This document shows, one piece after another, positions 2 through 11,746 of a DNA stretch of 64,000 nucleotides. The number at the start of each line of letters is the position of its first letter. Position 1 is the first letter of the stretch. The notes beneath the pieces are model-generated. The model worked only from the letters and a program-made list of their open reading frames with translations. It had not been told where the DNA came from and made no database searches. The position numbers were made by a program, and so were the translations under genes. The stretch is from Pseudonocardia sp. N23 (lineage in GTDB: Bacteria; Actinomycetota; Actinomycetes; Mycobacteriales; Pseudonocardiaceae), in contig NZ_BEGX01000057.1 in the NCBI RefSeq assembly GCF_002583555.1, forward strand, positions 62,001-126,000, written 5' to 3'.

Positions 2-2344
2 GACCCGACGCCCGTCGTGCTCGGCGGCTCGCCCTACGCGGTGACGACGCTGCTCGGGACCCTGCTGGGCGACGTGCTGGGCCGGGTCACCGAGACGGAG
101 GGCGGCAAGCCCGACAGCGTGGTGCTCACCCACCCCGCCAACTGGGGCCCGTTCCGCCGGGAGCTGTTCGAGGAGGTCCCGCAGTTCGCGGGGCTGACCG
201 GACCCGACACCGTCACCGAGCCGGAGGCCGCAGCCGCGCACTACGCAGCGTCCCGGCACCTGTCCGACGGCGAGGTCATCGCGGTCTACGACCTCGGCGG
301 GGGCACGTTCGACGCGACGGTGCTGCGCAAGCACCCGGGTGGCATCGAGATCCTCGGCTCGCCCGAGGGCATCGAGCGTCTCGGCGGCGTCGACTTCGAC
401 GAGGCGATCCTGTCGCACGTCAACTACTCCTCCGGCGGCGCGCTCGCGGAGCTCGACATGAGCGACCCACAGACAGCGATCGCGCTGGCCCGGCTGCGCC
501 AGGACTGCGTGCTGGCAAAGGAGGCGCTGTCGATCGACTCGGAGACGACCATCCCGGTGTTCCTGCCGGGACGGCACTTCGACATCCGGCTGACCCGCGG
601 CGAGTTCGAGGACATGATCCGCGCGCCCATCGAGTCGACGATCGGCACGCTGTCACGCACGCTGCGCTCGGCCCAGGTGGAGCCCACCAACCTCTCCGCG
701 GTCCTGCTCGTCGGCGGGTCGTCGCGGATCCCGCTGGTGTCGCGCATGATCTCCGAGGAGCTCGGGCGGCCCACCGTCGTCGACGCCCACCCCAAGTACG
801 CCGTCGCCCTCGGCGCGGCCACCCTCGCCGCGGCCAGCGCCTCCGGTGCCGGCCGCGGGTCCGAGGGCGGCGCGGCGTGGCCCGGTGTCGTCGTCTCCGC
901 GGCTCCCGAGCAGGGCGGCGCGCCGTTCGGTGCGGGTGCCGCCGCGGCGGCCGGCGCCGGTCTCGGTGCGCGTGCCGCGAGCGGTGGCCCGTCGGCGGGC
1001 GCGGCGACGATGCCGCCGCGCGCCCCCGGCGTCGCGCAGGGCGCGCCCGGCCAGCAGGGCAACGGGTGGGGACCACCGCCCCAGGGCGGCAACGGCCAGG
1101 CGCAGCGCGCCGCCGCCGGTCCCCCGCCACAGCAGCAGCGGCAGCAGCCGCAGCACAACCAGTTCCAGCAGGGCTCCCCGCCCGGGCCGCCCCCCGCACC
1201 CGGTGCCCCGGGCGCGCCGCAGGGCGGTGGCTCCGGTGGCGGGAACCGCAAGGTGCTCGCGATCGTCGCCGCCGTCGTCGTGCTGCTCGCGCTCGCAGGC
1301 GGCGGGACGTGGTGGGCACTGAACCGCTCCGGCTCCAGCACCCCGACCGACGGCGGCGCCTCCACCACGGCGACCGCCGCCACCGGCACGGGGACCGCGG
1401 GCGGCGGCACGACGCCGGTCACGGTCGCCGCGAGCGTGCCGGTGCCGTCACTGGGCCAGACGATCCCCGCCGGCAAGCCCGCCGGCTTCGCGGTCGTCTC
1501 GCCCTCGGGCCGGCAGGTCTACGTCGCCAACCGGGCCACCAAGACGGTCACCGTCATCGACACATCGGTCAACAAGATCACCGCGACGATCCCGGTCGAT
1601 GCCGGGCCGCCGCAGTACCTGGCCTTCGCGCCCGACGGCAAGAAGATCTATGTCAGCATCTGGGACGACGCGAAGACCATCGCCGACGTCGCCGTGATCG
1701 ACACGACGACGAACTCGATCATCGCGAACATCAAGGTCGACACGCGCCCGTTCCTCGCCGCGGTCACGCCCGACGGCTCCAAGCTGTGGGTGCCCAACCA
1801 CGACTCAGGCTCGATCTCGATCATCGACACGTCGACCAACACCGTGGTCAACACCCTCAAGGTCGCGCCCAACCCGCACTGGATCGAGTTCAGCACCGAC
1901 GGCACGAAGGCCTACACCGCCAACCACGAGTCGAACGTCATCTCCGTCCTCGACGTCGCGAACGAGTCCGAGATCGCCCAGATCCCGGTCGACAAGAGCC
2001 CACACAGCCTCGCGGTGAACCACCAGCGGCCGCTCGTGGCGAACGTCAACTACGACTCCAACACCGTGACGATGATCAGCACGGACAACGACCAGGTCGT
2101 GGCACGGATCCCCGTGGGCAAGAACCCGCAGGAGATCACCTGGGCCCCCGACGGCCGCTTCGCCTACGTCGTCAACGTCGCCGACAACACCGTGTCGGTG
2201 ATCAGCGCCGACTCGAACTCGGTGACCGCGACCCTGCCCGTCGGCCTCTCGCCGACGTCGGTCGCGGTGACGCCCGACGGCAGGACCGGGTACGTCACCA
2301 ACCTCACCGACGGCACGCTGAGCATGCTCAACCTCGCCGGCTGA
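2..2344 (+). CDS. Hsp70-family protein with membrane anchor and YVTN beta-propeller (5' partial)
   Basis: The reading frame is already open at base 2, so the true start lies upstream. The first ~275 visible residues are an Hsp70/DnaK-type actin-fold ATPase: the phosphate-binding motif YDLGGGTFDA is encoded near 287-316 and the adenosine motif LLVGGSSRIP near 704-733. A Gly/Ala/Pro/Gln-rich linker of about 130 residues follows, then one hydrophobic segment (near 1250-1325), a Ser/Thr-rich stretch, and about 300 residues of YVTN-type beta-propeller repeats (VYVANR, IYVSIW, AYTANH, AYVVNV and similar). Inferred topology is a cytoplasmic ATPase with an extracytoplasmic propeller. There is no visible DnaK substrate-binding domain, so it is not the housekeeping chaperone. 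A strong hairpin follows the stop codon. The role is unknown. Confidence 0.88.
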   Translation, partial: DPTPVVLGGSPYAVTTLLGTLLGDVLGRVTETEGGKPDSVVLTHPANWGPFRRELFEEVPQFAGLTGPDTVTEPEAAAAHYAASRHLSDGEVIAVYDLGGGTFDATVLRKHPGGIEILGSPEGIERLGGVDFDEAILSHVNYSSGGALAELDMSDPQTAIALARLRQDCVLAKEALSIDSETTIPVFLPGRHFDIRLTRGEFEDMIRAPIESTIGTLSRTLRSAQVEPTNLSAVLLVGGSSRIPLVSRMISEELGRPTVVDAHPKYAVALGAATLAAASASGAGRGSEGGAAWPGVVVSAAPEQGGAPFGAGAAAAAGAGLGARAASGGPSAGAATMPPRAPGVAQGAPGQQGNGWGPPPQGGNGQAQRAAAGPPPQQQRQQPQHNQFQQGSPPGPPPAPGAPGAPQGGGSGGGNRKVLAIVAAVVVLLALAGGGTWWALNRSGSSTPTDGGASTTATAATGTGTAGGGTTPVTVAASVPVPSLGQTIPAGKPAGFAVVSPSGRQVYVANRATKTVTVIDTSVNKITATIPVDAGPPQYLAFAPDGKKIYVSIWDDAKTIADVAVIDTTTNSIIANIKVDTRPFLAAVTPDGSKLWVPNHDSGSISIIDTSTNTVVNTLKVAPNPHWIEFSTDGTKAYTANHESNVISVLDVANESEIAQIPVDKSPHSLAVNHQRPLVANVNYDSNTVTMISTDNDQVVARIPVGKNPQEITWAPDGRFAYVVNVADNTVSVISADSNSVTATLPVGLSPTSVAVTPDGRTGYVTNLTDGTLSMLNLAG

Positions 2345-9937: not shown

Positions 9938-10127
9938 GATCGGCTCCTGGCTGAACTCTGGGGGCTTTCTCTGCTGCTCCTCAGAGTGCCGAGGGGCCGT
10001 GTCCGATTCGATGGTGTGCTCCCCCGAGCCGGCCGGGCCCTCCCCCGGGCCCGGGTGGGGTTCTCCCCCGCACGCGAACAGGCCCGGGATCAGGGGATCC
10101 CGGGCCGGCACGAACACTGCGAGACGG
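9938..10127 (-). promoter_or_regulatory. Leader region between the aspartate kinase and synthetase genes
   Basis: A 190-nt gap contains a perfect 11-bp hairpin at 10081-10106 (GGCCCGGGATC, 4-nt loop), placed like a terminator or attenuator after the kinase gene. Nearer the synthetase start it contains the motif CGATGGTGTGCTCCCCCG (plus-strand reading, 10009-10026), which recurs upstream of the aspartate kinase gene. Confidence 0.5.
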
Positions 10128-11384: not shown

Positions 11385-11746
11385 GACGTTCTCCTCGGTC
11401 CCCCCGGCCCGGACTGTCCGGGACCCGATCGAGACTGGGGCCGGGGACCGGTCCGCGGCGATGGTGCGCTCCCCCGGGACACGGGTGCGCTCCCCCGACC
11501 TCGGGTAGGGCGTTCCCTCCGCCCGTTTCATCCGGTACACCCCGTCCGCCCCCGCCGGGCCGAGTTCGACCTGGGCCCGGCCACGCGCGGCACGCCACCG
11601 CGGATCGTCGGTCGGCGCGCAGGTTGTCCGCGCCGCGCACACCGTGCAGGCCACGCACCGACCGCGGACGCCGCGTGCCGATGGCAGAGCCCGCGCCGAG
11701 CCGAGCGGACCGGACGCCGGGGCGTGCACGGACCCGGCCGCCGATA
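11385..11746 (-). promoter_or_regulatory. Upstream region of the aspartate kinase gene with duplicated motif
   Basis: No convincing gene is seen here. Two exact copies of GGTGCGCTCCCCCG (plus-strand reading) at 11463-11476 and 11484-11497 are spaced 21 bp, two helical turns. The proximal copy extends to CGATGGTGCGCTCCCCCG (11459-11476), 17/18 identical to the element before the synthetase gene. A shared regulator or common RNA leader element is inferred. Confidence 0.5.

Follow-up and report, generated by a model that had tools for sequence, protein, structure and literature searches.

RESULTS

Architecture of the Hsp70-propeller protein

Pseudonocardia sp. N23 is a soil bacterium, and its genome assembly amounts to 6.54 Mb in 173 contigs. 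The window analyzed here, a stretch of 64,000 nucleotides corresponding to C57:62001-126000 of that assembly, opens inside a gene whose product joins an Hsp70 nucleotide-binding domain (NBD), a low-complexity linker, a predicted transmembrane (TM) helix and a YVTN beta-propeller in one chain (Table 1). A preliminary description of the window had proposed this arrangement, together with the lack of a substrate-binding domain, and both were borne out by Pfam, NCBIfam and AlphaFold2. The 5' end, which that description had sought, was read from the upstream contig DNA: the gene starts with a GTG codon at C57:61780 (221 bp before the window), preceded by a GGAGG that ends five bases ahead of it, and the full-length protein has 854 amino acids (aa).

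Table 1. Features of the Hsp70-propeller locus. Positions are those of the window unless preceded by L009, the numbering of the locus, in which the GTG start codon is L009:11780.
Feature	Position	Strand	Remarks
Hsp70-NBD/TM/YVTN-propeller gene	2-2344	+	Residues 75-854 and stop codon; first 74 residues upstream of the window
Hsp70 NBD	2-832	+	Residues 75-351 in the window, whole domain 1-351; Pfam, ATP-site residues, AlphaFold2, Foldseek
Gly/Pro/Gln-rich linker	833-1249	+	Residues 352-490; mostly predicted disordered
Predicted TM helix	1253-1309	+	Residues 492-510; positive charges precede the helix
Seven-bladed YVTN beta-propeller	1448-2341	+	Residues 557-854; TIGR02276, 1l0q, AlphaFold2, Foldseek
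Inverted repeat directly past the stop codon	2370-2404	+	Possible terminator; read in the sequence and by palindrome scan
252-aa HisKA_3 protein	L009:10802-11560	-	No HATPase domain recognized by Pfam
LuxR response regulator	L009:10146-10811	-	Upstream of the Hsp70-propeller gene, divergent
472-aa kinase-like protein	L009:8636-10054	-	Same operon
1633-aa histidine kinase-IniC-like fusion	L009:3731-8632	-	Same operon

The Pfam HSP70 model matched the protein in two stretches (E = 2.3e-50), and since the best of these stopped at profile position 373 of 599, the protein is without a substrate-binding domain; where DnaK-class proteins have this C-terminal domain, AlphaFold2 gave instead a disordered linker following the NBD. 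The actin-like ATPase fold and the phosphate 1, phosphate 2 and adenosine motifs place the NBD in the Hsp70 superfamily. For its part, the C-terminal region matched the YVTN repeat model TIGR02276 of NCBIfam in six stretches (E = 7.1e-55; 182.7 bits versus a cutoff of 27.85). The top sequence matches in the PDB were the archaeal S-layer YVTN propeller 1l0q (4.8e-53) and DnaK 2v7y (2.6e-42). AlphaFold2, run with a 43-row alignment, gave a predicted local distance difference test (pLDDT) score of about 95 for the NBD and about 97 for the propeller, whose repeats close into a ring of seven blades, and Foldseek searches with this model returned DnaK (1.5e-30) and 1l0q (3.6e-29). Nearly all of residues 358 to 489 had a pLDDT below 50, and residues 490 to 516 formed a helix; in an earlier run without an alignment, the propeller alone was modelled well. 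An Rfam scan detected no known structured RNA in the intergenic region and gave one subthreshold match within the gene.

The ATP-site positions, like the J-protein docking residues R167 and N170, are given here in the numbering of E. coli DnaK, with the roles assigned to them there. D8, K70, D194, T199, D201, K270, S274, G342 and R345 were kept in all 66 relatives compared, and E171 was kept in 65 of them. Because these ten main positions are conserved, ATP binding by the NBD is likely and hydrolysis is plausible. An inactive NBD finds no support in these ten residues, although T12, N13, D231 and E267 are not kept (see Discussion). At the positions of R167 and N170 the window protein has D and T, and among the 66 relatives R was found in 15 and N in none.

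The hydrophobic segment at residues 492 to 510 had a mean Kyte-Doolittle value of 2.52, and 2.37 was the lowest value in a set formed by the window protein and 30 of the 34 relatives with a propeller described below (the ones included in alignment A1). In 29 of these 31 proteins the net charge was more positive on the N-terminal side of the segment. Given this hydrophobicity and the positive-inside bias, the protein is predicted to be inserted in the membrane with a single pass, the NBD lying inside the cell and the propeller outside. In the propeller relatives the linker is anywhere between 44 and 503 aa long, and mean majority conservation was 0.83 for the NBD, 0.73 for the propeller and 0.47 for both the linker and the TM segment. 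Since the linker is predicted to be disordered and its length is so variable, rigid transmission from the NBD to the membrane is unlikely; with the linker and TM sequences so little conserved, tethering or recruitment is easier to defend.

Distribution of the family

A single scan of genome contigs with six short query peptides yielded 73 loci, a number that is a lower bound. The survey of domain architectures recommended in the preliminary description gave the NBD-TM-propeller layout in 34 of them, the window protein being additional, and varied tails in the others: some proteins end soon after the TM segment (Cellulomonas loci and L065), and the remaining tails, judged by eye, are Pro/Thr-rich, Ig-like-looking or of other kinds. 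The 34 propeller loci belong to Pseudonocardia, Actinomycetospora, Geodermatophilaceae and unplaced Pseudonocardiales, with some redundancy (L020 and L022 are identical or nearly so, as are L015 and L016 in the NBD). A close homologue of the window protein, L018, occurs in Pseudonocardia dioxanivorans CB1190. The layout, which had been called unusual, is therefore real but not unique, the more so as the genome of strain N23 encodes, besides DnaK and an HscC-like protein named by eye, three further NBD-linker-TM proteins (C114, C69 and C112) that carry tails other than a propeller. An oddity of one genome is ruled out by the 34 other loci, and an assembly chimera is ruled out by the recurrence of the gene and its flanking operon in records of other species.

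The propeller profile was built from the window protein and 13 of the 34 loci, and these 13 match it by construction. Pfam propeller models were found in 31 members of alignment A1 (the window protein, 30 of the 34 propeller loci and 12 others), and PQQ_2 was found in 2 of its 43 members. In an NBD tree of 65 rows, built by a quick method and carrying a long-branch warning, all 34 propeller rows, the window included, fell inside one 42-row clade with an SH-aLRT support of 100, and three changes of tail type suffice across the tree. These rows comprised 59 of the 73 loci and six proteins of the window genome; the other 14 loci were omitted because they were truncated, duplicated another locus or had no usable start.

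Two loci have peculiarities of their own. At L033:3677-11234 two NBD genes lie in tandem, the propeller being present in one and absent from the other, and the operon region has a propeller stretch of its own, which rules out a propeller loss at this locus. In Actinomycetospora cinnamomea (L041:8253-9465) the propeller gene is interrupted by about 1.2 kb, perhaps an insertion.

A divergent kinase-regulator operon

The operon transcribed away from the Hsp70-propeller gene encodes, besides the LuxR regulator and two partial or degenerate kinases (the 252-aa and 472-aa proteins), a full histidine kinase, the 1633-aa protein. Its hydrophobic N-terminal part is followed by HisKA_3 and HATPase_c, and an extended low-complexity region then leads to an IniC-like domain at the C terminus. 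The LuxR regulator was divergent from the NBD gene, at 77 to 99% identity (tblastn), in 32 of the 73 loci, some of which include little upstream DNA; 26 of the 32 were propeller loci, and the eight propeller loci without the regulator in the fetched DNA were L013, L014, L039, L041, L043, L046, L076 and L077, L076 having a homologue of the 252-aa protein. Synteny of the operon was retained in Pseudonocardia, Actinomycetospora and Geodermatophilus loci.

The residues of a two-component pair were all present in the adjacent operon. With matches below 38% identity left out, the His, the N-box Asn and the G-box Asp of the large kinase were kept in 28 of the 28 loci read, and the regulator retained its Asp in all 32 loci read. 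In the 472-aa kinase-like protein the His was missing from 31 of 31. Because its N-box index was a guess, the 252-aa HisKA_3 protein was judged by the missing Pfam HATPase domain. The preliminary description had seen a signalling or cell-wall-sensing layout at this locus, and the interpretation as a whole was half right: the divergent operon fits a signalling or envelope-sensing role, and the coupling that it had imagined between ATP hydrolysis inside and ligand binding outside is weighed in the Discussion.

Linkage to dynamin-like genes

The C-terminal part of the large kinase is 32% identical over 483 aa (2.6e-43) to an IniC-type protein with a Pfam Dynamin_N match encoded on C69 of the same genome. 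The gene for this protein adjoins one for a homologue of IniA (1e-139 to the M. smegmatis protein, 6j72), and their operon, which also has two IniB-like proteins (named by eye; none by Pfam), is divergent from an NBD-TM paralogue. The genome has four Dynamin_N matches above 50 bits, in two places (C69 and C112), each within about 5 kb of an NBD-TM gene; these being the only such matches, no IniB-IniA-IniC operon lies beside the window gene. Directly ahead of the C112 NBD paralogue there is a GrpE-like protein (L092:8014-8964; 22 bits, below the cutoff).

The same linkage was found in 12 genomes of the genus, picked from 40 for having at most 10 contigs. With weak matches excluded, 48 of the 71 Dynamin_N matches were used; they form 24 pairs of the IniA/IniC type, and all 24, among the matches listed, have an NBD-only Hsp70 gene 2.0 to 5.6 kb away (measured from match start to match start), 0.33 pairs being the number expected within 8 kb of such a gene. 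DnaK or an HscC-like protein was the nearest Hsp70 in none of the 24 pairs listed, the classes DnaK, HscC-like and NBD-only having been assigned by us from profile coverage. In 15 other genera of the class, an NBD-only Hsp70 gene adjoins four of five strong dynamin pairs, and the single stronger dynamin genes of three genomes (G041, G049 and G054) are not adjacent to an Hsp70 gene. All 5 genomes with strong pairs had NBD-only genes, as did 1 of the 10 genomes lacking such pairs; with weak pairs counted as well, the figures are 5 of 7 and 1 of 8.

The kinase-fused IniC-like domain departs from dynamin-like GTPases in having no P-loop Lys, which was absent from the window protein and from 12 of 12 readable relatives (L010, L011, L017, L019, L020, L024, L026, L027, L028, L030, L034 and L036); in L034 and L036 the entire motif is degenerate. 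In the remaining operon loci the motif lay beyond the fetched DNA or was not alignable. The Lys is present in all six intact IniC genes that adjoin other NBD genes. The full kinase-IniC fusion is not universal, since the reading frame after the kinase stops within 178 to 314 aa in seven loci (L021, L028, L029, L034, L036, L038 and L066).

A tandem palindrome between the divergent units

The region between the two transcription units contains the palindrome GGGG-N4-CCCC twice in tandem (L009:11597-11630). Among 69 loci with a usable start, one of which was excluded for having too little upstream DNA, the pattern preceded the NBD gene in 31 of the 32 operon loci versus 0 of the 36 others, and it turned up in 0 to 5% of shuffled sequences per locus. 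As the pattern was written after viewing the operon loci, the first of these counts is partly by construction. More independent support comes from the absence in the 36 others and from L057 and L076, where a sequence model (R1, 25 sites) found the palindrome beside the 252-aa gene, although both loci were outside its training set. At E values up to 1, R1 found no site in the propeller loci L013, L014, L039, L041, L043, L046 and L077. Thus, the palindrome seems to follow the 252-aa gene. We infer that the LuxR regulator binds it, which would make it a candidate operator.

The loose pattern also arises by chance, with several further matches per strand in the window, and R1 has off-site matches, such as L038:8840-8874 (E = 2.9e-4). 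Genome-wide, where R1 scored 150 of 5106 first-look candidates and sites may thus be missed, the best site (3.1e-7) was one in the training alignment, the next had an E value of 0.014, and the rest were at 0.03 or above. The second-best site (C61:79273-79318) lies at the end of an open reading frame, ahead of a gene judged by eye to be deacetylase-like, and may be a terminator. Two weak matches within the window (11484-11517 and 10050-10069), possibly due to chance, lie near the starts of minus-strand genes named by eye as aspartate kinase-like and NRPS-like. An IniA-like protein encoded on C4 (L104:7074-8258), with a membrane hairpin seen by eye, is preceded at a distance of about 200 bp by a match to the loose pattern; R1 at E values up to 1 detected no palindrome there.

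DISCUSSION

The genes that accompany this family, either those of membrane-remodelling dynamin-like proteins or those of a sensor-kinase circuit, suggest that it helps to monitor the cell envelope. Tentatively, and from sequence, we favor the view that the Hsp70-propeller protein serves a dedicated two-component circuit as its envelope-facing component; the circuit would have arisen from an Ini-type (dynamin-like) module and would presumably respond to envelope stress. In such a circuit, the propeller would dock outside the cell on a partner in the wall or envelope, while the NBD, held at the inner face of the membrane by the flexible linker, would switch between ATP- and ADP-bound shapes. The NBD would bind a cytoplasmic membrane partner, for which the likeliest candidate is the IniC-like pseudo-GTPase domain in the neighboring histidine kinase, and this engagement would tune the kinase; the LuxR regulator would in turn act on the tandem palindrome between the divergent units.

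Several observations weigh against this view. The link among these proteins is one of gene adjacency, and adjacency is not contact. Several positions in or near the nucleotide pocket of DnaK are not conserved in the NBD, T12 being kept in 54 of the 66 relatives and N13, D231 and E267 in none, so that ATP turnover may be altered. The regulator operon is absent from the fetched DNA of eight of the 34 propeller loci, and the Hsp70-propeller protein may for this reason work alone. The degenerate IniC-like part of the kinase might do nothing. An IniA-like match flanks the gene in few relatives (L010, L024, L025, L049, L052 and L066), that of L010 having no Pfam match and reading as degenerate, and the nearest IniA-like gene of the window genome is on another contig (C4:37074) and shows no G domain by eye. 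As for the wider linkage, the 12 genomes have 49 NBD-only Hsp70 genes, of which 25 are not beside a pair among the matches listed. In the class sample, the contig yielded no Hsp70 match for three pairs, the strong one of G053 and the weak ones of G047 (C81) and G052 (C9).

Among other explanations, the one that survives best, though we think it somewhat unlikely, is that the protein is an output and not a sensor: a stress-induced scaffold under the adjacent regulator, whose propeller would stabilize a complex for envelope export or wall synthesis and whose NBD would only anchor or recycle it, in the manner of MSMEG_5308/Rv1057 on MmpL3/TtfA. MSMEG_5308 is a stand-alone propeller that is not known to carry an NBD, which sets it apart from the protein described here, and an output role would leave unexplained both the invariant main ATP-site residues and the company of NBD-only relatives with dynamin-like pairs. 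The position of the palindrome between the operon and the Hsp70-propeller gene would suit such a scaffold, and the NCBIfam model of the MmpL3/TtfA stabilizer does match the propeller (2e-16, 60 bits), although far below its cutoff of 600. According to PMC6593404, MSMEG_5308 is likewise a seven-bladed propeller tied to two-component stress control: it accumulates when MmpL3 transport is inhibited and stabilizes the MmpL3/TtfA complex on which it acts, and its homologue Rv1057 is controlled by two two-component systems.

Alternatively, the NBD of the family may regulate the assembly or membrane cycling of Ini dynamins generally, the link in the window branch being a relic and the propeller gene free-standing. 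The constant adjacency of listed dynamin pairs to NBD-only genes, the degenerate IniC-like part and the eight operon-less propeller loci would all be accommodated; we nevertheless consider this improbable, given that operon synteny has been kept across three genera with a regulator at least 77% identical. Least probable of all is that ligand binding by the propeller is relayed across the single TM helix to alter ATP turnover by the NBD, or that the signal runs the other way, an idea that draws on the presence of both domains in one polypeptide, the conserved main ATP residues and the kinase-regulator neighbors and that sits badly with a mostly disordered linker of very variable length and with a TM segment far less conserved than either domain.

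The sensor-circuit reading that we favor can be set against known systems. Receptor kinases of the PknD type have the same general plan, with a cytoplasmic nucleotide-using domain, a linker, a TM segment and an outside propeller; the window protein has an Hsp70 NBD in place of the Ser/Thr kinase and a YVTN in place of an NHL propeller. Compared with DnaK/Hsp70 chaperones, it shares the NBD fold and the ten main ATP-site residues but lacks the substrate-binding domain, the J-protein contacts and N13, D231 and E267, and it adds a membrane anchor and a propeller. The nearest published precedent that we found is that of the GAP1-N2 GTPase-centric conflict systems, for which PMC7159879 describes actinobacterial HSP70 genes without a peptide-binding domain and linked to GTPase genes. 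Those systems, as described there, comprise GAP1, GrpE, DnaJ-FNIII and TRAFAC GTPases, whereas here we find IniA/IniC pairs or a kinase-IniC fusion, and the term "dynamin" has no occurrence in PMC7159879; GAP1 was not among the Pfam names of six neighboring proteins, no profile search having been aimed at it.

The mycobacterial iniBAC/IniR system (PMC5760070; IniA structure in PMC6715688) offers a further parallel: iniBAC is a cell-wall stress operon, and in strain N23 an IniA homologue is encoded beside the C69 paralogue. The window locus differs in that its IniC-like domain forms part of a kinase and has no P-loop Lys. The term "hsp70" does not occur in the iniR paper (PMC5760070). DnaK duplication is surveyed in PMC11019930. 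Searches of the literature for Hsp70 with YVTN, iniBAC or dynamin returned, among the matches listed, nothing on the Hsp70-TM family or its dynamin link. What is new here is the genomic context, namely, the linkage to dynamin pairs, the divergent kinase operon and the shared palindrome.

The main interest beyond the protein itself is a family of membrane Hsp70 ATPases that accompanies dynamins and of which one branch appears to have been built into a kinase circuit. A bolder extension, which on present evidence we hold to be rather unlikely, is that membrane-tethered Hsp70s without a substrate-binding domain are dedicated regulators of Ini dynamins in actinobacteria and that the window branch was rebuilt as a sensor. 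If true, the dynamin of this branch would have turned into a pseudo-GTPase domain within a histidine kinase, and an Hsp70 carrying an outside propeller would read it. As a chaperone, Hsp70 is known to depend on its substrate-binding domain. A conserved membrane family that retains the main ATP site without that domain and resides beside all of the dynamin-like pairs listed in 12 genomes suggests an unrecognized partner of bacterial dynamins. Since ini genes respond to wall-active drugs in mycobacteria, as reported in PMC5760070, such helpers of the Ini proteins may matter for the survival of envelope damage by actinobacteria.

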